DNA of 64,000 nucleotides. It comes from Planctomycetota bacterium (GTDB lineage: Bacteria > Planctomycetota > Planctomycetia > Pirellulales > Lacipirellulaceae). The stretch's first letter is position 1, and every line of letters starts with the position of its first letter. The position numbers were made by a program, and so were the translations under genes. The DNA is taken from assembly GCA_013152205.1 (NCBI GenBank), contig JAADGV010000054.1, forward strand, positions 62,001 to 126,000. Direction: 5' to 3'. Below the pieces are notes generated by a model, which was given only the letters and a program-made list of their open reading frames with translations, searched no databases and was not told where the DNA came from. Shown piece by piece: positions 33,797 through 57,551 of the stretch.

Positions 33797-34783
33797 CTAG
33801 GGCCGGGCAACCGCCGTTGCGGGGACGATAAGGACCGTGCCGTGACGCATCTGTTTTGCGGGTAGCGTCATCTCTTGTGAGCGGTTTGTCCAGGTTTTTA
33901 GATCGTTGCTCGTCGCGAGACAATACGAAAAATCGCTGCCAGGAGCATCCCAATACAGCATCCACTGACCGTCGTGTTTCAGCAGCGACGGGCCTTCGCC
34001 CATCGTGGCGACGATGTCTGTTCCTGCTCCGACAAGCGGCGGCCCCAGCGTGGTTTCAAACGGCCCCTGCATGTGTTTGCTGAACGAGAGTCGCAGATTT
34101 TTGCCACCTTGCTCAGGAGGCATCTCGTTTTTGATCACCATCACCCAGCGGTCATCGGAAGTATTGGTTGTGTTGCGATTGTCGTGGGCGATATACGGAT
34201 CGATCACCCCGTACTCAGGATTTTTCGGACTGAAAAATAGGGTTGGTCGTGAGAACGTCTTGAAGTCCTTCGTTCTAGCCGCGTAGGTGCGATGGTCGTT
34301 GCCGTGCGGATCGGCGGACCCGTCTGCGTCGGCAAGCTCTGCCAGTGTTGTCGAACTCCAGAGGATCAGAAATTCGTGTTTTTCTGGATCCCAATGCAGT
34401 TCGGGCGCCCATGTGTTCTTCACGGCGGTGAACTCGCCCCAGATGTCGATTTTTGTTGGTTCGCTCCAACGGACGAGATCGTTTGAATGTGCGTAGCCGA
34501 TGCTTAGGGAGTTCCAACTGGTTGTCCATACCATATGAAACACGCCTTCGTGATAAACGATCGAGGGATCGCGAGTGAGGCTTTCCTGTCCCCATTTTGG
34601 CGCTGGCAGAACGACCTTGCCATCGTTGAGCCATTGGAACTTCAGCCCGTCGTGGCTAGTTGCGAAGTAGATGCCGGTTTCGCCATTGCCCAAGAAATAG
34701 GGCAAAAGAAAAATATCGTCCGCCCGACTTGTACCGCCACCCAGGGCAAGCAGCGCTGCAATGCAAAGTAGCTGTTTTTTCAT
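33797..34783 (-). CDS. Secreted GH43-like beta-propeller protein
   Basis: The protein of about 328 residues begins with a signal peptide (MKKQLLCIAALLALGGGTSRA). The rest shows the repeated blade pattern of five-bladed glycosidase propellers: DPSIVYHEGVFHMVWTT, YAHSNDLVRWSEP, APELHWDPEKHEFLILWSS and YWDAPGSDFSYCLATSNDLKTW. The DPSI motif and the following acidic residues fit the GH43/GH32/GH68 superfamily, but I cannot name the three catalytic acids with confidence, so substrate and activity are open. An in-frame ATG four codons upstream (34795) is an alternative start. It is separate from the propellers at 51.7 and 53.3 kb and shares only the fold. Confidence 0.75.
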   Translation of the reverse strand: MKKQLLCIAALLALGGGTSRADDIFLLPYFLGNGETGIYFATSHDGLKFQWLNDGKVVLPAPKWGQESLTRDPSIVYHEGVFHMVWTTSWNSLSIGYAHSNDLVRWSEPTKIDIWGEFTAVKNTWAPELHWDPEKHEFLILWSSTTLAELADADGSADPHGNDHRTYAARTKDFKTFSRPTLFFSPKNPEYGVIDPYIAHDNRNTTNTSDDRWVMVIKNEMPPEQGGKNLRLSFSKHMQGPFETTLGPPLVGAGTDIVATMGEGPSLLKHDGQWMLYWDAPGSDFSYCLATSNDLKTWTNRSQEMTLPAKQMRHGTVLIVPATAVARP

Positions 34784-34819
34784 TCTTCTATCCATTACGA
34801 CGCTGGTACTCGTTTGGGG

Positions 34820-47332: not shown

Positions 47333-48934
47333 CTATGCAAAACTCCAGTAGAGCGTAAGCATGAGTGCCACGAGCAGCAGGGCCAGCATTCTTGGATCCC
47401 AGATCGAACGCACCGGTTCTGTGGTTAAAGCAGCCAAAGGGTTGGGCCAGCATAGGCCGTCGACTTGCTCGGGCGCGGGGCGGGGCGTCATCAGGCTCAC
47501 CACGACGAACAGACCGCAGCACAGGACGAATAGCCACCATGCTTGCAGCATGAAGGGGATACCCAGTTGATTTGAAATCAACATGAATCCAAAGGCAGGG
47601 AAGTCGACGATGAACACGACGATCCCCAGCAAGAAGCCGCCCAGGAGCGTGCAGAATGCCGCCTGACTCGTGCCGCGAGGCCAAAACACGCCCATCAGGA
47701 ATACCGCCGTGATCGGCGGGGCCAAGCAGGCAATCATGTGGTTCAGCCCTGCGAAGATACCGCCGAAATGTTTGCCCTGCGTGCTCCACGCCATGGCGAC
47801 TAGCATCGCGACCACTGCGGTGATCCGGCCGATTTTTACCAACTGAGCCTCCGAAGTATTCGGCCAAAGGCGTCCAACCAGATCAATCGAGACCAGGGTC
47901 GAAGCCGAATTGAGCGCTCCGGCAACCGTCGACATCAACGCAGCCAGCAAACCTGCGGCCAACAACCCCTTCAGGCCGGTGGGTACTAGCTGCTCGATCA
48001 ACACCGGCAGTGTTTGATCCGGTTCGTCGCCGATCTGGTCGCGAAACAATACGTACGCCATCACTCCGGGGAACACCATAAGAAAGACTGGCAACACCTT
48101 GATGAAACCGGCAAACAAAGGGCCAAGCTGCGCGTCGCGTTGGGTGCGTGCGCCCAGCACTCGCTGCACGATCGTTTGGTCGGCGCACCAATACCAGATT
48201 CCCAGCACCGGGTAGCCCAACAGCATCGCATACCAAGCGTAATCGCCATCGGCGTGCAGCATGGAAAGCTGTCGTGGTTTGACTGCCTGCTCTAAGGCGG
48301 CATAGGTGGTGATGCCCTGATCGGCAAGCGCCGAAGCGCCGCAAACCGTAATGATGATCGCGCCAACGAGCAATAGGACCGTTTGCAGGGCTTCGGTCAC
48401 AACAACAGCCAACAGCCCGCCCACGACGGTGTAGATCACCGTAGCGGTTGAGATAACCACGATCGAAAGAAGCGGATTTAGGCCGAAAAACCGCTCGATG
48501 ATCGTGGCGCCTGCATAAAGCGAGACACCGATGTGGATGAACATCGCTCCGAAGATGGCCATCACGGCAACCACCATTCGTGAAGCCGCCGAGTAGCGAC
48601 GTTCCAGGTATTCCGGAAGCGTAGCCACGCGGCTGCGAAAGTAAAAGGGCGCAAATACGATTCCCAAAAGAATCAGGCAGAACGTGGCCAGCCATTCGAA
48701 ATTCCCAAAGACCAAACCGTCCTTGTATCCCGACGACGCCAGCCCCACCAAATGTACGGTCGAAATGTTTGTGGCGAACAGCGCCAGCCCAATCATCGGC
48801 CAGCGGAGCGATCGGCCAGCGAGAAAATAGTCGCTAGTTGTGTTTTTCTCGCGGCGAGAGGCAAACAGTCCCAGCGCAACGATGCCTACCAAGTAGGCAA
48901 CAATGATCACCAGGTCGAGCGTCTCAATTCGCAT
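47333..48934 (-). CDS. SSS-family sodium:solute symporter
   Basis: The 533-residue inner-membrane protein has 13 to 14 hydrophobic segments and the SSS signatures: SDYFLAGRSLRWPMIGLALFAT (about 34-55), FAPFYFRSRVATLPEYLERRY (about 95-115) and GVMAYVLFRDQIGDEPDQTLPVL-like loop regions. It most resembles the sugar (SGLT-like) branch, for instance WWGADQ-type segment GIWYWCADQTIVQRVLGAR. It starts 12 bases after the stop of the Ldh2 gene, so the two form an operon. Divergent from the fucosidase side, it probably imports the released sugar, perhaps L-fucose; this is inference from context. AGGAAC lies about ten bases before the ATG. Confidence 0.9.
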   Translation of the reverse strand: MRIETLDLVIIVAYLVGIVALGLFASRREKNTTSDYFLAGRSLRWPMIGLALFATNISTVHLVGLASSGYKDGLVFGNFEWLATFCLILLGIVFAPFYFRSRVATLPEYLERRYSAASRMVVAVMAIFGAMFIHIGVSLYAGATIIERFFGLNPLLSIVVISTATVIYTVVGGLLAVVVTEALQTVLLLVGAIIITVCGASALADQGITTYAALEQAVKPRQLSMLHADGDYAWYAMLLGYPVLGIWYWCADQTIVQRVLGARTQRDAQLGPLFAGFIKVLPVFLMVFPGVMAYVLFRDQIGDEPDQTLPVLIEQLVPTGLKGLLAAGLLAALMSTVAGALNSASTLVSIDLVGRLWPNTSEAQLVKIGRITAVVAMLVAMAWSTQGKHFGGIFAGLNHMIACLAPPITAVFLMGVFWPRGTSQAAFCTLLGGFLLGIVVFIVDFPAFGFMLISNQLGIPFMLQAWWLFVLCCGLFVVVSLMTPRPAPEQVDGLCWPNPLAALTTEPVRSIWDPRMLALLLVALMLTLYWSFA

Positions 48935-48946
48935 GTTTTAATGTTC

Positions 48947-50041
48947 CTAGTCGTCCGCTCGATTTGCACGAGACGCATCGCCATCGGTGAGCGGCTCTTG
49001 TTTGTACTGTTGGGCACAGCGGTTCAGATTCTCAATCACGCCAAGGCCGAGCGGAATGCCATTGGCCAACCGCTCCTCGCGGCAGATGATTTCGGGTTCG
49101 CCCGGATAGAGAACGCGACCGTCCGGCTGCGATGGCGTCAAGCTGCCGACGCATCGCATCATCTGGTCGACTCGCTGGCGAAATGTGTCCTCCGGAATAA
49201 AACGTGAAACGTCGATTGCACCCACAAGACCTCCAAGATTTCTCTGTTGCGACAAATCGCCATACATTTTTGGGATGTCGGGGCCGTAGGGGCTTCCGCT
49301 CAACATGGCACATAAAACGTCGATCATGATTCCTAGTCCAGAGCCCTTATGACCGCCAAAAGGATGAACCGCCATGACTTGGGCTGGGTCGGTTGTTTCA
49401 CAACCGTCCGAATCGACTGCCCAACCTGTGGGAATCGGCACGCCCTCGGTGATCGCATTTTGTACCGAGTTCCAGGGTGTGATGCTGGTCGCCATGTCGA
49501 GGCAGAGCGATTTGCCTTCTGCGCCGGGCGCGGTGATGCAAATAGGGTTGGTGCCGCAAAACGGCTTGGAAGAACCGTGAGGGACGACCATCGAATCGAC
49601 GTGGGTGAAGGCAAAGCCGATCATTCCCGCCTCCGCAATTTTCAGCCCGTAGTAGGACAGAGCGCCGCAGTGGCTGGAGTTTTGCGCCGACACCCAACCG
49701 GCACCTGCCTGACGGGCTAAACGCACCGCCTCATCAGCAGCCTGCCACATGACGAGTTGTCCCAGGCCGTTTCCGCCATCGACCAACGAAGTTGCCGGCG
49801 CAAGTTCCCGCACGTCAATATCCGGACGCGGCTCAATGCTGCCGGCACGAATTCGAGACAAATAATGAGGAAGCCGAGCTAACCCGTGGGAATCGATTCC
49901 GCGGAGATTCGACTCGACAAGCGAATCGCTCACGAGCTGGGCTGCTGGCTCCTGAAGGCCGGCAGCTTTCAGCAATAGCGAACCAAACTGCTTCAGCCGA
50001 GAGTGGCTCAGCCGAATCGCGGGAGCTTGAATTTGTGGCAA
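48947..50041 (-). CDS. Ldh2/malate-lactate dehydrogenase family oxidoreductase
   Basis: The 364-residue protein belongs to the NAD(P)-dependent Ldh2 (malate/L-lactate/ureidoglycolate/sulfolactate) family: ESNLRGIDSHGLARLPHYLSR (about 43-63, catalytic His), NSSHCGALSYYGLKIAEAGMIG and GTNPICITAPG, with HPFGGHKGSGLGIMID near 230. It probably oxidises or reduces a 2-hydroxy acid. In this context it could act on a sugar-acid breakdown product such as lactate, but the substrate is not readable. The start is TTG at 50039-50041: AGGAGAGG lies nine bases upstream, whereas the frame's ATG at 50119 lies in the neighbouring promoter and overlaps gntR. SSS follows at 12 bases. Confidence 0.88.
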   Translation of the reverse strand: MPQIQAPAIRLSHSRLKQFGSLLLKAAGLQEPAAQLVSDSLVESNLRGIDSHGLARLPHYLSRIRAGSIEPRPDIDVRELAPATSLVDGGNGLGQLVMWQAADEAVRLARQAGAGWVSAQNSSHCGALSYYGLKIAEAGMIGFAFTHVDSMVVPHGSSKPFCGTNPICITAPGAEGKSLCLDMATSITPWNSVQNAITEGVPIPTGWAVDSDGCETTDPAQVMAVHPFGGHKGSGLGIMIDVLCAMLSGSPYGPDIPKMYGDLSQQRNLGGLVGAIDVSRFIPEDTFRQRVDQMMRCVGSLTPSQPDGRVLYPGEPEIICREERLANGIPLGLGVIENLNRCAQQYKQEPLTDGDASRANRADD

Positions 50042-50097
50042 GATTTTTTTCCTCTCCTGCTTGATCTGGGTACAATATTCTATATTATATAAAATAT
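50042..50097. promoter_or_regulatory. Divergent promoter with AT-rich palindrome
   Basis: The 23-base segment 50075-50097 is a near-perfect palindrome: left atatt-c-tatat, centre t, right tata-aaatat; 20 of 23 positions are symmetric or nearly so. TATAAT occurs on the minus strand within it. It overlaps the ATG of the GntR gene at 50096 and lies 34 bases from the Ldh2 start. It is the only plausible control site for both transcription units and the likely operator of the adjacent GntR/FCD protein; that is inferred. Confidence 0.5.
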
Positions 50098-50797
50098 GGC
50101 AGATACGACAACAGGTCATACCGCTATTTTACCGCTGGCCCAGAACATCGGATTGCGCGATAGTGTTGCCGAGCGTTTGCTGGTCGCTGTTCTCGACGGC
50201 AGTTTACAAGCAGGCGACCGGCTTGTGGGGCAACGTCTGGCCGCGCAGCTTGGCGTGAGCGCGACGCCGGTACGCGAGGCATTGATCGAGTTGGCAACTC
50301 TAGGCTTTGTCGAACTGCTGCCCAACCGGGGCGCGGTCTGCTGTGAATTCGGTCCCACAGAACTCCGCGATATCTTTCAGGTCCGTCGTCTCCTTGAGGC
50401 GGAGGCCGCCTTCGGTGCTTGTGGGCGGGTGCCAGTCGAACAACTGCAAGAACTTCGTGGGCGGATGCTCAAACTTTTGGAGACCGTTGAGACCGATCCT
50501 GCGTGGTCCGATCATGCAATGGCTGCCGACCACAAGTTGCATAAAGTCATCCGACAACATTGCCCTAACCGGCGACTTGCCCACGAGATCGAGCGCGACA
50601 ACGTCTTAATGCGGGCCATCCGCCGAGTGGCGGGCAATCTTTACAACGTTCAGTTGCGGGCTGTTTCTGAGCACTTACTGATCATCAAAGCCCTTTTGGC
50701 AGAGGACGCCGAATTGGCCCGTAAGCGGATGAGCAAACACGTTGAGAGTACTGCTCGGGGAATCGCCAAAGTGATGTTCCAACAGCGCGGGGAATAG
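50096..50797 (+). CDS. GntR-family regulator, FCD (FadR-type) domain
   Basis: The 233-residue protein has an N-terminal winged helix (about 22-90: VAERLLVAVLDGSLQAGDRL, then LGVSATPVREALIELATLGFVE) typical of GntR, followed by the all-helical FCD effector domain (about 95-225). Histidines and acids in MAADHKLHKVI and RAVSEHLLIIKAL match the FCD metal site that often binds sugar acids. The effector in this locus could be a fucose-derived acid. It starts at ATG 50096 inside the palindromic promoter and is followed after five bases by the SDR gene, so it controls its own operon and, likely, the divergent Ldh2-SSS unit. Confidence 0.9.
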   Translation: MADTTTGHTAILPLAQNIGLRDSVAERLLVAVLDGSLQAGDRLVGQRLAAQLGVSATPVREALIELATLGFVELLPNRGAVCCEFGPTELRDIFQVRRLLEAEAAFGACGRVPVEQLQELRGRMLKLLETVETDPAWSDHAMAADHKLHKVIRQHCPNRRLAHEIERDNVLMRAIRRVAGNLYNVQLRAVSEHLLIIKALLAEDAELARKRMSKHVESTARGIAKVMFQQRGE

Positions 50798-50802
50798 CAA
50801 AC

Positions 50803-51621
50803 ATGAGCCCAACCGACAACACAGAAAGCCCTGCCTTAAAACTGGCCAATCGGGTTGCTGTCATTACCGGAGGCACCAAGGGTATCGGTTTGGGCTGCGC
50901 GAGTGTCTTCGGCCGGCATGGCGCGAGCGTTGTGATTGCGGCTCGCAATGAACAGTCGGGCCGTGAGGCAGAAGGACAATTGAAGGCCGCCGGTGTCGAA
51001 GCATTGTTCGTTTCTTGCGACGTTTGCAGCGAGCAGGACATGCAGCAATTGTTCGAGCAGGCTATCACTCGGTTCGGCCAGATCGATTGTCTGGTGAACA
51101 ACGCTGGCTGGCATCCGCCGACCCAAAGCATCGAGGACGTGAGTGTCAAAGAGTTCGAGCAACTCGTGCGTTTGAACCTCACGAGCACTTTCATGGGTTG
51201 CAAATTTGCAATTCCCCACTTACGGAAGACGCAGGGCTCGATCATTAACATGTCGAGCGCCGTGGCAGCCGTAGGTCAAGCTGCGGCACCTGCATACGTC
51301 AGCACCAAGGCGGGGCAAATCGGGCTGACCAAGGCGTTGGCGCTCGATCTGGCCCCCGACGGCGTCCGGGTTAATGCGGTTTGCCCGGCAGGCGTGATGA
51401 CACCCCTGATGCGAGATTGGGCCAACAGCGAATACAACGCCGAGGAGGCGCTAGCAATGGTTGATCGTTGGCACCCGCTGGGCCGCATGGCAACGGTGGA
51501 AGAAATCGGCGAAGTTTGCGCATTTCTCGCGAGCGCTGAAGCATCGTTCATAACCGGCCAAGAAATTTTTCCCGACGGTGGCGCCTCGCTAGGGTACGCA
51601 GAAAAGGCACCTGCGAAATAA
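50803..51621 (+). CDS. SDR oxidoreductase, L-fucose dehydrogenase-like
   Basis: The 272-residue classical SDR has the NAD(P) motif TGGTKGIG (about 22-29), NNAG (about 100-103), catalytic Ser and YxxxK (SSAVAAVGQAAAPAYVSTKAGQ). It resembles human HSD17B14, now known as an L-fucose dehydrogenase, at several places I know from memory: FGxxDCLVNNAGWHPP, PYLRKxQGxxINxSS, and the end SLGYAEKA versus ELGYGCKA. The product would be L-fucono-lactone, the first step of oxidative fucose breakdown. Five bases separate it from gntR; the ribosome site GGGGA overlaps the end of gntR. The function assignment rests on this similarity and on the fucosidase nearby. Confidence 0.85.
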   Translation: MSPTDNTESPALKLANRVAVITGGTKGIGLGCASVFGRHGASVVIAARNEQSGREAEGQLKAAGVEALFVSCDVCSEQDMQQLFEQAITRFGQIDCLVNNAGWHPPTQSIEDVSVKEFEQLVRLNLTSTFMGCKFAIPHLRKTQGSIINMSSAVAAVGQAAAPAYVSTKAGQIGLTKALALDLAPDGVRVNAVCPAGVMTPLMRDWANSEYNAEEALAMVDRWHPLGRMATVEEIGEVCAFLASAEASFITGQEIFPDGGASLGYAEKAPAK

Positions 51622-51701: not shown

Positions 51702-52775
51702 ATGCAACGAATACTTCAAGTAGTTACACCCGCAATCATCCTGCTAGGCATCGCTTCCACCGCGTGGTGTCAGGCCCCAGCTAAAAGCCTCGGCGACAAC
51801 GAGCCGAATTCCAAGAGGAACCAAGAAGCAGACAAGCCTTCCGCAGCAGTGTGGAAACATCCATTGACTAAAAAAGGAAAACTCCATTCGCCTCTTGTCG
51901 AGGTTACCCCGTTTGTCTTCAAAGATCGCCTGTATCTTTTAGAGAACTGGCAGAAGCAATGGGAGTTTGCTGATTCCTCGGATGGTGGCCGCACACAGGA
52001 AGATGAGATTCGTATTCGGTCGGTTATCTCCGATCGGATTGTTTCTACCCCGCTACTCGGCCATGGGCTAGGAATGGCGTTTGTCTGGGAAGATCGCGTC
52101 TATGTCTTTGCGGGCAACTGGGGCAAGGAAGAAAAATGGAACATCACCAAGATAGAAATGACCTCCTCCGCGGATTTGATTCACTGGACGGAGCCCGTTG
52201 TCGTCCTCAAGGCGGAGCCCCAGGAAAAATTCTTCAATGTTTCGGTTTGCCGAGGGAAAGATGTGTTTACTCTGCTCGTGGAAACGAATGATCCTGCTTG
52301 GCCGACCTTTACGTTCAAGTATTTTTCATCAAAGGACCTGAAAGAATGGACGAGGATTCCTGACGCTCTTTATGGCCGGAAAAAATATGTAGGTGGACCA
52401 GCGCTCTACTTTGAAGACGGTATTTACTACACGCTCTACTTGCAGTCGCTAGGCGGCGGGCGATATGAAACTCGCATTACACGCTCGACCGATCTGGTTC
52501 ACTGGCAGGATGCACCGAAAGATCGTCCGTTTGTAACTTTCAATCCAAAAAACAAAGTCCATTCATTACGACCTGAGAACATCCGCGAGGTGAATGCTTC
52601 GGATGCTGAGGTGTGCCATTGGAAGGGGAAGACGTTGGTTTACTTCACCGGAGGCGACCAGCATTTTGCGGGGGACCTGCAACTGGCTGAATTCAAGGGG
52701 TCGCCTGCGGAGTTGTTCAAATATTTCTACGTCGACTCGCCTGTCGTTGCCCCTGAAGTCCAAAAAGGCAGGTAG
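51702..52775 (+). CDS. Secreted five-bladed beta-propeller protein
   Basis: The 357-residue protein has a signal peptide (residues 1-24, cleaved after WCQ) and a propeller with GH32/43-like blades. Its second half shares motif order with the C-terminal domain of the following 1413-residue protein: FFNVSVC versus LFNSSVC, NDPAWPTFTFKYFSSKDL versus NDPAYPGFTTKFARSDDL, KEWTRIPDALYG, RSTDLVHWQD and VNASDAEVCHWKGKTLVYF. Catalytic residues of a named glycoside hydrolase are not evident, so it may bind rather than cleave glycan. The gene follows the SDR by 80 bases and has its own spacer, so it may have a separate promoter. Extracytoplasmic. Confidence 0.85.
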   Translation: MQRILQVVTPAIILLGIASTAWCQAPAKSLGDNEPNSKRNQEADKPSAAVWKHPLTKKGKLHSPLVEVTPFVFKDRLYLLENWQKQWEFADSSDGGRTQEDEIRIRSVISDRIVSTPLLGHGLGMAFVWEDRVYVFAGNWGKEEKWNITKIEMTSSADLIHWTEPVVVLKAEPQEKFFNVSVCRGKDVFTLLVETNDPAWPTFTFKYFSSKDLKEWTRIPDALYGRKKYVGGPALYFEDGIYYTLYLQSLGGGRYETRITRSTDLVHWQDAPKDRPFVTFNPKNKVHSLRPENIREVNASDAEVCHWKGKTLVYFTGGDQHFAGDLQLAEFKGSPAELFKYFYVDSPVVAPEVQKGR

Positions 52776-52897: not shown

Positions 52898-53203
52898 GAA
52901 ACCGCTAATCAGCGCTAATACACGCTAATAGGAAAAACAGGCAAAAAAACAGGGTAACCGTTTACGGAATGAAAAAGGTTGAACCACGAAGGACACAAAG
53001 AGCACTAAGGGATTGGAAGACAAATCGCTTGCCCGCACTTGCAGCTTTGGCTTTGCCAGAAGGACTAAATTTACCCTGATGGATGACTATTGAATTCTAT
53101 TCTTCGTGTCCTTAGTGATCTTTGTGGTTCAGTTTCTTCCATCCCGTGAACGGTTACAAAACAGGTTTGAGATCAGCGCGTATCAGCGCTGAATAGCGGT
53201 TTC
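52898..53203. repeat. Large nested palindromic element
   Basis: Outer arms gaaaccgcta (52898-52907) and tagcggtttc (53194-53203) are perfect complements; the next nine bases pair at eight positions. An inner pair is gtaaccgtttacgg (52954-52967) with ccgtgaacggttac (53144-53157), 13 of 14. A third, imperfect pair consists of the gaaccacgaaggacac and ctttgtggttcag words. The outer arms are the family at 14656-14742. Confidence 0.75.
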
Positions 53204-53309
53204 TTCTCACAAAAAAATGTGTCAAGAAAACTTGCAGAGGTACGCCTTCCTCATGCTGAATTGCCCGACAAATAGATTCCAAAACTATATGGTAAGGAGT
53301 TGCAAAGAT

Positions 53310-56300
53310 ATGACGAACAATGTTAGTAGCGCACTGATTTTGGCTTTGGGTGTTGTGGCAAGTTGCACCTCCGCCTATGCGGCAGATGAGGTGGCGCCTG
53401 TGGCTACGGCGTCGCTGCCACGAATCGAAAAACTCGGCACGATCGATCTCGACTTGGTTGAATCTCAGCCGATTGTCTTTCGCGATCGGCTTTACCGTTT
53501 TGAATCAGTGAGAACCCGCTACCAAGGCAACCAGACCGGCAAGCCGTATTTCCGCTTCGTCGATCCGACCAATGGCGAAACAACCCCCAGCTTTGCCGAG
53601 GGGCACGATCTGGGTAGCGCACTGGTCGATGGCGACACGATGTATGTGTTCGGCACGCCCGGTTGGGGCTCGGCAGCAATTGATATGTTCTGGTCGAAAG
53701 ATTTGAAGACTTGGAAGTCGAAGCGGATATTGGATTTGCCGGGGTGGAAATTGTACAACAGCAGCGTGTGTAAAGCTGGAGATCGGTACGTGATGGCCTT
53801 CGAGGTCGGCGGGCCACCGGAGATCGTTGGCGTCGGATTCACCAGCCGGTTTGCTGAGTCGAAGGACTTGCAAAGCTGGAAGTTGCTCGACGAGCCAGCT
53901 GTGTTCACAAAAAAGCGTTACTCGGCTTGCCCCACGATCCTCTACGTGGATGGGTGGTTTTACGTCGTCTATCTCAAGTCGACGGGTTACAAGTCGAAAG
54001 GCACCCAGAAGTACAACCCTGCGATTGTCCGATCGAAAGATTTGGCCCACTGGGAAGAAAGCCCGCTGGGCGCGCTCATGCACTTCGACGAAGCCGACAA
54101 ACGCATCGCCAACCCTCGCCTCACCGACGCGCAGCAACAGGTGATTGCCAAGGCGCTGAACCGCAATAACTCCGACCTCGATTTCTGTGAACACAACGGT
54201 CGGGTGATTATCAACTATTCCTGGGGCGATCAGGTAGGCCATGAGTTTTTGGCCGAGGCATTTTATGCGGGCACGTTGAAGGGGTTACTCACCGGCTTTT
54301 TTCCCCAAGACTCCGGCAACCTGGCGGAGACGCCAGAGCAGCGCGACGCGCGTATGGCTTGGTTTCGCGACGCACGGTTCGGCATGTTCATCCATTGGGG
54401 TCTTTACAGCGCTGCCGCAGGAGAATGGGATGGTAAGCCGGTCATCAAGCTGAGTTCGTGGACGATGCGAAATGCGCAGATCCCGCTGGAAGGGTACATG
54501 AAGCTTCGAAAGGATTTCACGGCGGCAAAGTTCGATGCCGACGCCTACGCGAAACTCGCCCAAGACGCAGGGATGAAATACATCATTTTGGTGAGCAAGC
54601 ATCACGAAGGCTTCTGTCTGTGGAACTCGAAAGCGACGGACTACGACATCACTTCAACACCCTACCCGGGCGATCTTGTAAAAGAACTGGCCGGGGCGTG
54701 CAAGCGGCGCGGCCTTCGCTTTGGTGTGTATTACTCGATCCTCGACTGGCACCATCCCGACTACACTCCGCGTTTGGCTTGGGACAAGCGCGAGCAGAAG
54801 CCTGAGTTTGGCAAGTACATCGGCTACATGAAGGCTCAGCTCAAGGAGTTAGTCGAAATTGCGCCGAACGTCGACGTCATGTGGTTCGATGGCGAATGGG
54901 ACAAAAGTTGGACGCACGAACATGGCAAAGACCTGTACGCCTACGTTCGCTCGCTCAAGCCTTCGATTCTGGTTAACAACCGCGTGGACAAGGGGCGAGC
55001 AGGCATGAAAGGGCTAACCCGCGAAGGAGATTATGCCGGCGATTTTGGCACGCCCGAGCAGCAAATTCCGCCCATGGGCCTGCCGGGCGTGGATTGGGAA
55101 ACGTGTATGACGATCAACGACACGTGGGGCTACAAACGCCAGGACTCCGCCTGGAAATCGACCGACGAGCTGCTGCACCAATTGATCGACTGTGCCAGCA
55201 AGGGCGGCAACTACCTGCTGAACATTGGCCCCACAGCCGACGGCACGATCCCGGCCCCTTGTCCGAAGCAATTACGCGAGATCGGTAACTGGCTCTCGCA
55301 AAATGGCGAGGCCATTTACGGCACGATGGCTAGCCCCTTCCCGGACCAACTGCCTTGGGGACGTTGTACGACCGGGAAGCCGCGCGATGGGGTGACGCCG
55401 ATGTACTTGCACGTTTTTCAGTGGCCGGCCGACGGCAAGCTGACGGTTCCACCACTGAAAAACACCGTGCGAGGCGCCTATCTGCTGGCCGATAAAAAGC
55501 AGACAGCACTCGCCCTCGAGCGGCAAGATGGCAAGACGATCGTCACTCTGGGAGACAAACCCTCGAAAGATTCGGCGATAGTCGTTGTGCTTCAGATCGA
55601 AGGCAAACCGACGTTAGCCTCTGTCGCAGTGCCGACGCAAACCAACGTCTCGATAACGACAAAGCCGGTGACTCTGTATGTCTCGAAACTGGGCGACAAC
55701 ACCGACGGAACCAGTTGGCAGAAGGCGTTTCACACGGTCCAAGCTGCGCTGTCGGCTGTGCCCGACGACAAGGGAGGTCATCGCGTGATCGTCCGGCCCG
55801 ATACGTACATGGAGGCCAACATGCTCCCGGCTCATCGGGGAGCAAAGGGCGCTTACAACGAATTGATCGGCGATTTCGATGGGAGCCTCGGATCGGGCAC
55901 GACCGGCCATGTGGTTCTCGACGCAGGCGATCCGCACAAAGGTTTTAAGAGCTACGACTGGTGGGGAAACATCCGGGCCTACCAAAAAGGCTGGTCGGCT
56001 GAACATACCGAGGAAACGGTTTCGGCTATCAAGTGGGACCGCTGGATTCTTCGCCGTTTGTACGCCACCGGTGGCGATGGCGGCCTCTGTTTCGACTGTA
56101 CTGACAAAATCGAACCCTTTACGGTAATCGTCGAAGACTGCATCAGCATCGGGCGCGCCTTCGGGTGCGGCGCGATGAGCTGCCTGTCTCGAAGCGACGA
56201 ACCGATCACGTTTCGCCGTTGCAACATGTGGTCGCTAGACGAGTGGGGCGACACGGCTGCCGGGTATGTCCGCATCGAAAATAAATCGATGCCAGAAAAG

Positions 56301-57551
56301 CCTGACATCGTGTTCGAAGATTGCACGATGGTGAGTCCCCAATGTGCGCTGAAGGGCGGCAACTACGGTTTTCATACCTACACCCATGCGCTTGTGAAAA
56401 ATTGCATTCTCGTCGCTCTCAACTTCTCGCAACCTCACGGCACGCCCACCGATGGCGTGGTTCAGAGTGTGCAAAACGGCAAGTATTTTCACGTTGACTT
56501 TGAAAACTGTGTCGTCATGGGGTTCAAGGTCTTTGGTGTGAAAGTCGACAAAGATTCTGCGGGCGACATAGGGTACTCGACCAAAGGGTCGGCGCTGGCC
56601 TATGTGCAATACACGCAACAAGTCCCCAAGGGTTTTCACACCCTCGACCGCTGGCCGGTTGAGGCCTTCGCGGCAATCGCGCCTCCTGCCCCCGTCAAGC
56701 CGACACCTGTGCTTGCCAATCGCGAACTTGTTGTGTCTGACATGTGCGAGGTCTCGCCATTTATTTGGAAAGGCCGCCTTTGCCGGATGGAATGCTACAG
56801 GCCCGGTCGCGGCGGTGCGAAAGAAGATTACTACCTGTTACTACGCGACGTGGAAACGGGCGACCAGATGGCCCGTTTCGCCGTGGGCTACGGATTGGCC
56901 TCTTGCCACGTCAAGGATGGGGTGTTCTATGGCTTCGCCTCCCGTTTCGAGGAGAACAATTGGAACGATGTGACCTTGTTCAAGTCCCGCGACCTAAAAA
57001 CCTGGGAACAGAAGACCATTATCGAACAGGAAAACGAACACCTGTTTAACAGCTCGGTCTGCGAAGGGCCTGATGGGTTTGTGATGGCCTACGAATCGAA
57101 CGACCCTGCTTATCCAGGATTCACAACCAAGTTTGCCCGGTCCGACGATCTCGATACCTGGACCAAACTGCCCGACGCTGCCTTTGGCACAAACCGCTAC
57201 ACCGCATGCCCCACCGTCCGTTACATCAATGGCTACTACTACGTACTCTACCTCGAACACCGACGGCCTTCACACGTCTACGAGACCTACGTGACCCGTT
57301 CCAAGGATTTGAAGACTTGGGAACTCAGTAGTGCTAATCCGGTGATCGCGCCCACGGGCCTGGACGAAGGCATCAACGCCTCGGACTCGGAAGTCGTGGA
57401 GTTCGACGGCAAGACTTTTGTGTACTACGCCGTCGGCGATCAACTCACCTGGATGAATGTTAAACGAGCAGAGTTCGAAGGCACTCTCCAGCAATTTTAC
57501 GAACGGTGGTACGTCCAGCCAGGCATCCGCGACTACGCCCTCGCCCCATAG
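53310..57551 (+). CDS. Secreted multidomain GH29 alpha-L-fucosidase fusion
   Basis: The 1413-residue protein has a signal peptide (MTNNVSSALILALGVVASC, cleaved near AYA-AD). Domain 1 (about 30-335) is a beta-propeller. Domain 2 (about 338-766) is GH29: WFRDARFGMFIHWGLYSAA, SKHHEGFCLWNS, the likely nucleophile D527 in VMWFDGEW, and GGNYLLNIGPTADG. Domain 3 (about 787-1115) is a right-handed parallel beta-helix (VYVSKLGDNTDGTSWQ-type start, then VEDCISIG, FRRCNMWS, FEDCTMVS, VKNCILVA). Domain 4 (about 1135-1413) is a second propeller similar to domain 1 and to the upstream protein. It should remove terminal alpha-L-fucose outside the cytoplasm; the beta-helix and propellers may bind or process the polymer. 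The start is supported by AAGGAG ten bases upstream. GH29 enzymes are usually 400-600 residues. Confidence 0.92.
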   Translation: MTNNVSSALILALGVVASCTSAYAADEVAPVATASLPRIEKLGTIDLDLVESQPIVFRDRLYRFESVRTRYQGNQTGKPYFRFVDPTNGETTPSFAEGHDLGSALVDGDTMYVFGTPGWGSAAIDMFWSKDLKTWKSKRILDLPGWKLYNSSVCKAGDRYVMAFEVGGPPEIVGVGFTSRFAESKDLQSWKLLDEPAVFTKKRYSACPTILYVDGWFYVVYLKSTGYKSKGTQKYNPAIVRSKDLAHWEESPLGALMHFDEADKRIANPRLTDAQQQVIAKALNRNNSDLDFCEHNGRVIINYSWGDQVGHEFLAEAFYAGTLKGLLTGFFPQDSGNLAETPEQRDARMAWFRDARFGMFIHWGLYSAAAGEWDGKPVIKLSSWTMRNAQIPLEGYMKLRKDFTAAKFDADAYAKLAQDAGMKYIILVSKHHEGFCLWNSKATDYDITSTPYPGDLVKELAGACKRRGLRFGVYYSILDWHHPDYTPRLAWDKREQKPEFGKYIGYMKAQLKELVEIAPNVDVMWFDGEWDKSWTHEHGKDLYAYVRSLKPSILVNNRVDKGRAGMKGLTREGDYAGDFGTPEQQIPPMGLPGVDWETCMTINDTWGYKRQDSAWKSTDELLHQLIDCASKGGNYLLNIGPTADGTIPAPCPKQLREIGNWLSQNGEAIYGTMASPFPDQLPWGRCTTGKPRDGVTPMYLHVFQWPADGKLTVPPLKNTVRGAYLLADKKQTALALERQDGKTIVTLGDKPSKDSAIVVVLQIEGKPTLASVAVPTQTNVSITTKPVTLYVSKLGDNTDGTSWQKAFHTVQAALSAVPDDKGGHRVIVRPDTYMEANMLPAHRGAKGAYNELIGDFDGSLGSGTTGHVVLDAGDPHKGFKSYDWWGNIRAYQKGWSAEHTEETVSAIKWDRWILRRLYATGGDGGLCFDCTDKIEPFTVIVEDCISIGRAFGCGAMSCLSRSDEPITFRRCNMWSLDEWGDTAAGYVRIENKSMPEKPDIVFEDCTMVSPQCALKGGNYGFHTYTHALVKNCILVALNFSQPHGTPTDGVVQSVQNGKYFHVDFENCVVMGFKVFGVKVDKDSAGDIGYSTKGSALAYVQYTQQVPKGFHTLDRWPVEAFAAIAPPAPVKPTPVLANRELVVSDMCEVSPFIWKGRLCRMECYRPGRGGAKEDYYLLLRDVETGDQMARFAVGYGLASCHVKDGVFYGFASRFEENNWNDVTLFKSRDLKTWEQKTIIEQENEHLFNSSVCEGPDGFVMAYESNDPAYPGFTTKFARSDDLDTWTKLPDAAFGTNRYTACPTVRYINGYYYVLYLEHRRPSHVYETYVTRSKDLKTWELSSANPVIAPTGLDEGINASDSEVVEFDGKTFVYYAVGDQLTWMNVKRAEFEGTLQQFYERWYVQPGIRDYALAP

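Follow-up and report, generated by a model that had tools for sequence, protein, structure and literature searches.

A planctomycetotal protein that joins a GH29 alpha-L-fucosidase domain to two related propellers and a beta-helix

According to a review, GH29 enzymes combine their catalytic domain with one or two beta-sandwich domains; sandwich domains, presumed to bind sugar, are carried by most of them (PMC10154630). None described there carries a propeller or a beta-helix. In the window, i.e. the 64,000-nucleotide stretch of a planctomycetotal contig analysed here, a single gene appears to place a GH29 domain between two propellers and to add a beta-helix. This raises the question of what such modules contribute to a fucosidase, and whether the protein carries one activity or more. 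We propose, with a probability of roughly 0.6, that it is a secreted (as predicted from its leader) multi-module exo-alpha-L-fucosidase of a fucose-scavenging locus.

One frame encoding four domains

Positions 53310-57551 of the forward strand form one open frame of 1413 codons (P0001) whose translation is devoid of internal stops; the longest open frame around it spans 53217-57551 (+). An AAGGAG at 53294-53299, 10 bases 5' of the ATG at 53310, is a plausible ribosome site. The predicted signal peptide (residues 1-24, 53310..53381, +) consists of the hydrophobic leader MTNNVSSALILALGVVASCTSAYA, and a VASC motif close to its end would be compatible with a lipoprotein signal as well. Profile HMMs for the propeller, GH29 and helix, built in this analysis from relatives, place a propeller at residues 10-342, GH29 at 336-772, the helix at 781-1130 and a second propeller at 1110-1413. 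The order of signal peptide, propeller N, GH29, right-handed beta-helix and propeller C in one frame is thus confirmed, with borders near those of a sequence-only reading of this DNA. That its architecture is unusual for GH29, as that reading also held, agrees with the beta-sandwich partners in the review cited above.

Could two genes, one encoding propeller and GH29, the other helix and propeller, have been joined by the assembly? The genome is fragmented (130 contigs, 93% complete), and we found no second instance of the four-domain order among about 1,130 genomes. However, where a frameshift or join had been considered, the frame is intact across the three junctions, GC content is level across the whole gene and repeats of at least 20 nt within it are short in-family motifs only, with no long repeat at the joins. 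The gene also lies well inside a contig of more than 126 kb, and GH29-helix and helix-propeller-GH29 fusions are present in other genomes, so that a chimera is very improbable. In the gap 5' of the gene, an inverted repeat (tgaaccacgaaggacacaaag ... cttagtgatctttgtggttca, window 52980-53131) looks like a dispersed repeat.

A literature search, with most subscription journals outside its reach, returned no paper describing this architecture. A survey of planctomycetotal enzymes reports multi-modular CAZymes, and states that a single CAZyme from this phylum had been characterised (PMC11131199).

The fucosidase domain and its locus

The GH29 domain with its C-terminal sandwich covers residues 336-772 (54315..55625, +). 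Pfam model PF01120 matches residues 337-667 with 313 bits (cut-off 25; E 3e-93), and structures 9rzx, 6gn6, 9rzy and 2wvv match over the full catalytic domain with E down to 1e-83, sharing with P0001 the nucleophile Asp and the acid/base Glu. With WFRDARFG beginning at residue 351 and WFDGEW at residue 525, the position given earlier for D527 is borne out. Both D527 and E583 are invariant (32/32 aligned GH29 sequences); by homology, D527 would be the nucleophile and E583 the likely acid/base, the aligned Glu being the one that we take to be E288 of BT2970. Judged from these alignments, the GH29 assignment is safe and the domain complete, as had been claimed; it would take off terminal L-fucose. 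No other GH29 match occurs in the genome, which is 93% complete.

Upstream of P0001 we found a Na+:solute symporter (47333..48934, -), an Ldh_2-family dehydrogenase (48947..50119, -), a GntR/FCD regulator (50096..50797, +) and an SDR dehydrogenase (50803..51621, +). The SDR scores 205 bits with the L-fucose dehydrogenase model, under the 300-bit cut-off, and shares 65-70% identity with SDRs located close to GH29 in two further genomes. The Ldh_2 gene is conserved in the same relatives. A locus of another genome (L229 in G632) has the order amidohydrolase, FAA hydrolase, SDR, symporter, Ldh_2, GntR, propeller, SDR, GH29, the last three genes being consecutive and nearly touching; its symporter is 74% and its SDR 65% identical to those of the window. 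The propeller gene of L229 shares an operon with GH29, close to likely genes of the L-fucose pathway. Neighbours with DUF1559, a marker of Planctomycetota, in genomes of the same family suggest a Planctomycetota-like origin for the genome of P0001.

The non-phosphorylating L-fucose route comprises a dehydrogenase, fuconolactonase, dehydratase, a further dehydrogenase and an FAA-type hydrolase, and the gene set of L229 fits this route. For the FAA hydrolase of L229, a 54% match exists elsewhere in the genome of P0001; since the matches there to the amidohydrolase, which is the candidate L-fuconolactonase, are distant (31%), evidence for the route in this genome is incomplete. In our proposal, the neighbouring symporter would import the freed fucose, which the SDR and Ldh_2 dehydrogenases would then oxidise.

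Propellers and beta-helix

Propeller N (about residues 26-338; 53385..54323, +) and propeller C (residues 1129-1413; 56694..57548, +) were delineated by HMM and alignment, the latter also by AlphaFold, with the domains folded singly, and Foldseek. A separate signal-peptide gene (51702..52775, +, 357 aa) encodes a third, U-type propeller detected by HMM, 36% identical to propeller C. All three belong to one family, within which N, C and U each fall into a supported clade of their own in the tree. The two outer propellers are related, as had been suspected from the sequence. Recent internal duplication was rejected, N and C falling into different clades (support 100/99). In a same-genus genome (L123, G008:C108:20337-20531), a fragment of 82 codons matches the end of propeller N at 72-77% identity and may be a decayed copy. 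Members of the family are also joined to a glycosidase of (alpha/alpha)6-like type (weak PF17389) or to domains that lack annotation (L221:5080-8760, L222:6377-9208, L230:1399-3441), and a GH43-family protein at window 33797-34795 (-; PF04616, E 5e-12) is distinct from the fused propeller family.

The model of propeller C is confident (pLDDT 93.5) and shows the five-bladed fold of GH43. Its best Foldseek match is BT_0996 (E 9e-10, TM 0.67), followed by GH43, GH159 and GH130 enzymes, and Pfam gives a weak PF04616 match. BT0996 (GH2, GH137 and CBMs; Bacteroides, RG-II) is itself a two-activity enzyme with a propeller domain. These likenesses would agree with a second hydrolysis by GH43/GH32- or GH137-type outer domains, the dual activity first proposed from the sequence. 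In a profile alignment to 5jow and 5z5d, however, the position of the GH43 acid Glu (blade IV, AEGP motif) is Ala or Gly in 33/33 propellers, leaving a GH43/GH32-type activity unsupported. Identity to BT0996 is only 16%, its propeller partner is GH2 rather than GH29, and no beta-helix has been described for it. The column aligned with position 240 of the BT_0996 chain, presumably the GH137 catalytic Glu, is not conserved among the propellers, although this alignment is local and maybe one blade off; structures 5mui and 5mt2 differ at this position (Gln vs Glu). We regard active propellers of these types as improbable. Three other carboxylates are invariant in the propeller alignment (E1147, E1262 and D1359 in propeller C; E51, E165 and D289 in propeller N; E67, E194 and D301 in the U-type protein), which leaves room for a different chemistry or for a ligand pocket. 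We favour a conserved sugar pocket of a non-GH43 type.

The helix module (residues 781-1130; 55650..56699, +; HMM, AlphaFold, Foldseek) belongs to no Pfam family. Its model is a right-handed beta-helix (pLDDT 85), in line with the parallel beta-helix anticipated earlier; the closest folds are the PL9 pectate lyase Pel9A (1ru4; E 4.5e-5, TM 0.51) and an RG lyase (5olq), then pectin methylesterases. Sequence searches of Pfam, NCBIfam and PDB were without match, and the suggestion of a sulfatase-like helix thus stays unsupported. Across 21 sequences, D910, R911, W912, R949, R961, E964, D977, D981, N1038 and Q1041 are invariant. Because conserved acidic and Arg residues follow a single line of coils, the helix is more probably an enzyme than not.

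A narrower form of this proposal would have the helix act on a fucosylated polymer of plants or algae, as a polysaccharide lyase or as a backbone hydrolase, with GH29 clearing the branches. The fold matches and the invariant D/R/E lines speak for it, and the model has the right-handed parallel beta-helix of PL9 and weakly resembles these lyases. On the other hand, beta-helices in general reach a TM of about 0.5, identity to the PL9 enzymes is 13%, and no uronate-specific gene was identified near P0001. PL9 lyases use a Lys base and an Asp calcium cluster; in the alignment of 21 sequences no Lys is invariant, the best being K880 (19/21). We consider this narrower form less likely than not.

The "fucose polymer" of the sequence-only reading is no more than a guess, as the nearest, though weak, fold matches to the outer modules are pectin-active enzymes (PL9 lyases, GH137 of an RG-II enzyme) and not fucanases. 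Sulfatases, counted as a sign of fucoidan, gave 26 matches, which is not decisive.

A recurring module pair and its possible role

Helix and propeller also occur beyond P0001, including as stand-alone proteins, many of them without GH29 nearby (custom HMM scan). Among 297 genomes of the order, the helix was found in 15, the propeller in 22 and both in 13 (search table, strong E-values); the propeller thus accompanies 13/15 helix genomes against 1.1 expected (Fisher p 3e-15, uncorrected for kinship). The two modules are joined as helix-propeller in G023, G027, G354, G420 and a KSB1 locus (L023), and as propeller-helix in G482, G578, G581 and G584. Two helices follow each other in G485 and in G458, there adjoining a propeller gene, and in G488 a helix gene adjoins a propeller gene.

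GH29 is fused to these modules in further orders: helix-propeller-GH29 in a Hydrogenedentota assembly (L022) and again in that phylum in a protein cut by a contig end (L251), GH29-helix in another Hydrogenedentota assembly (L250) and GH29-propeller in a family relative (G026, L138). The Hydrogenedentota fusions draw on the same module families as P0001 (in L022, helix and propeller are 84% and 78% identical to their counterparts), but differ in order, lack propeller N and have a GH29 domain only about 40% identical. The helix-propellers closest to that of P0001 are held by G023, of the same family (86%), and by Hydrogenedentota (about 81% identity), suggesting an inter-phylum transfer. The existence of a recurring, travelling helix-propeller pair, repeatedly fused to GH29 in different orders, is well supported, and this pair with its several fusions is what is new here. 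Independence of all fusions within GH29 was not shown by AU tests, in which a single clade was not rejected (p 0.28-0.51); only the differing domain orders argue for separate events. Elsewhere, GH29 lies behind an ApbE and a 3-keto-disaccharide hydrolase domain in Phycisphaerales (L025:6252-9689, 1146 aa; L030:5820-9692, 1291 aa), with a GH29 protein of similar length in L027, and an Armatimonadetes assembly (L024:1-2923) has two slightly overlapping GH29 frames in tandem.

Since relatives from two phyla combine these parts in different orders, it is probable that both module types target the sugar polymer on which the fucosidase acts. A serious rival is that helix and propellers only bind or space, GH29 being the single activity. 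The loss of the GH43 acid position in all propellers, the lack of an invariant helix Lys, which makes a PL9-type base doubtful, the presumed sugar-binding role of the sandwich domains on most GH29 enzymes and the propellers appended to other, different proteins are consistent with it. Against it stand the three invariant propeller carboxylates and the dense acid/Arg set of the helix, which exceed a usual binding fold, as well as the existence of free-standing helix and propeller proteins. We regard a purely binding role as less likely than not and favour a catalytic helix, paired with a propeller that either binds sugar or is catalytic in a non-GH43 manner.

In the favoured reading, the GH29 domain would remove terminal fucose, and the helix-propeller C unit and propeller N would work on the surrounding glycan or keep hold of it, so that debranching and the next step would take place on a single polypeptide. 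Going further, and only tentatively, helix and propeller may be the founders of two new carbohydrate-active families acting as a pair on one glycan motif, which Planctomycetota-like bacteria and Hydrogenedentota repeatedly fused to GH29, such that a single chain would first remove fucose and then cleave the linkage thus exposed. In these bacterial groups, which break down polymers containing fucose, many of the enzymes are unnamed or without tests. Through the repeated fusion, and the operon in another genome, two uncharacterised module families can be tied to fucose removal; they become candidates for new enzyme families, and the substrates worth assaying narrow to a short list.
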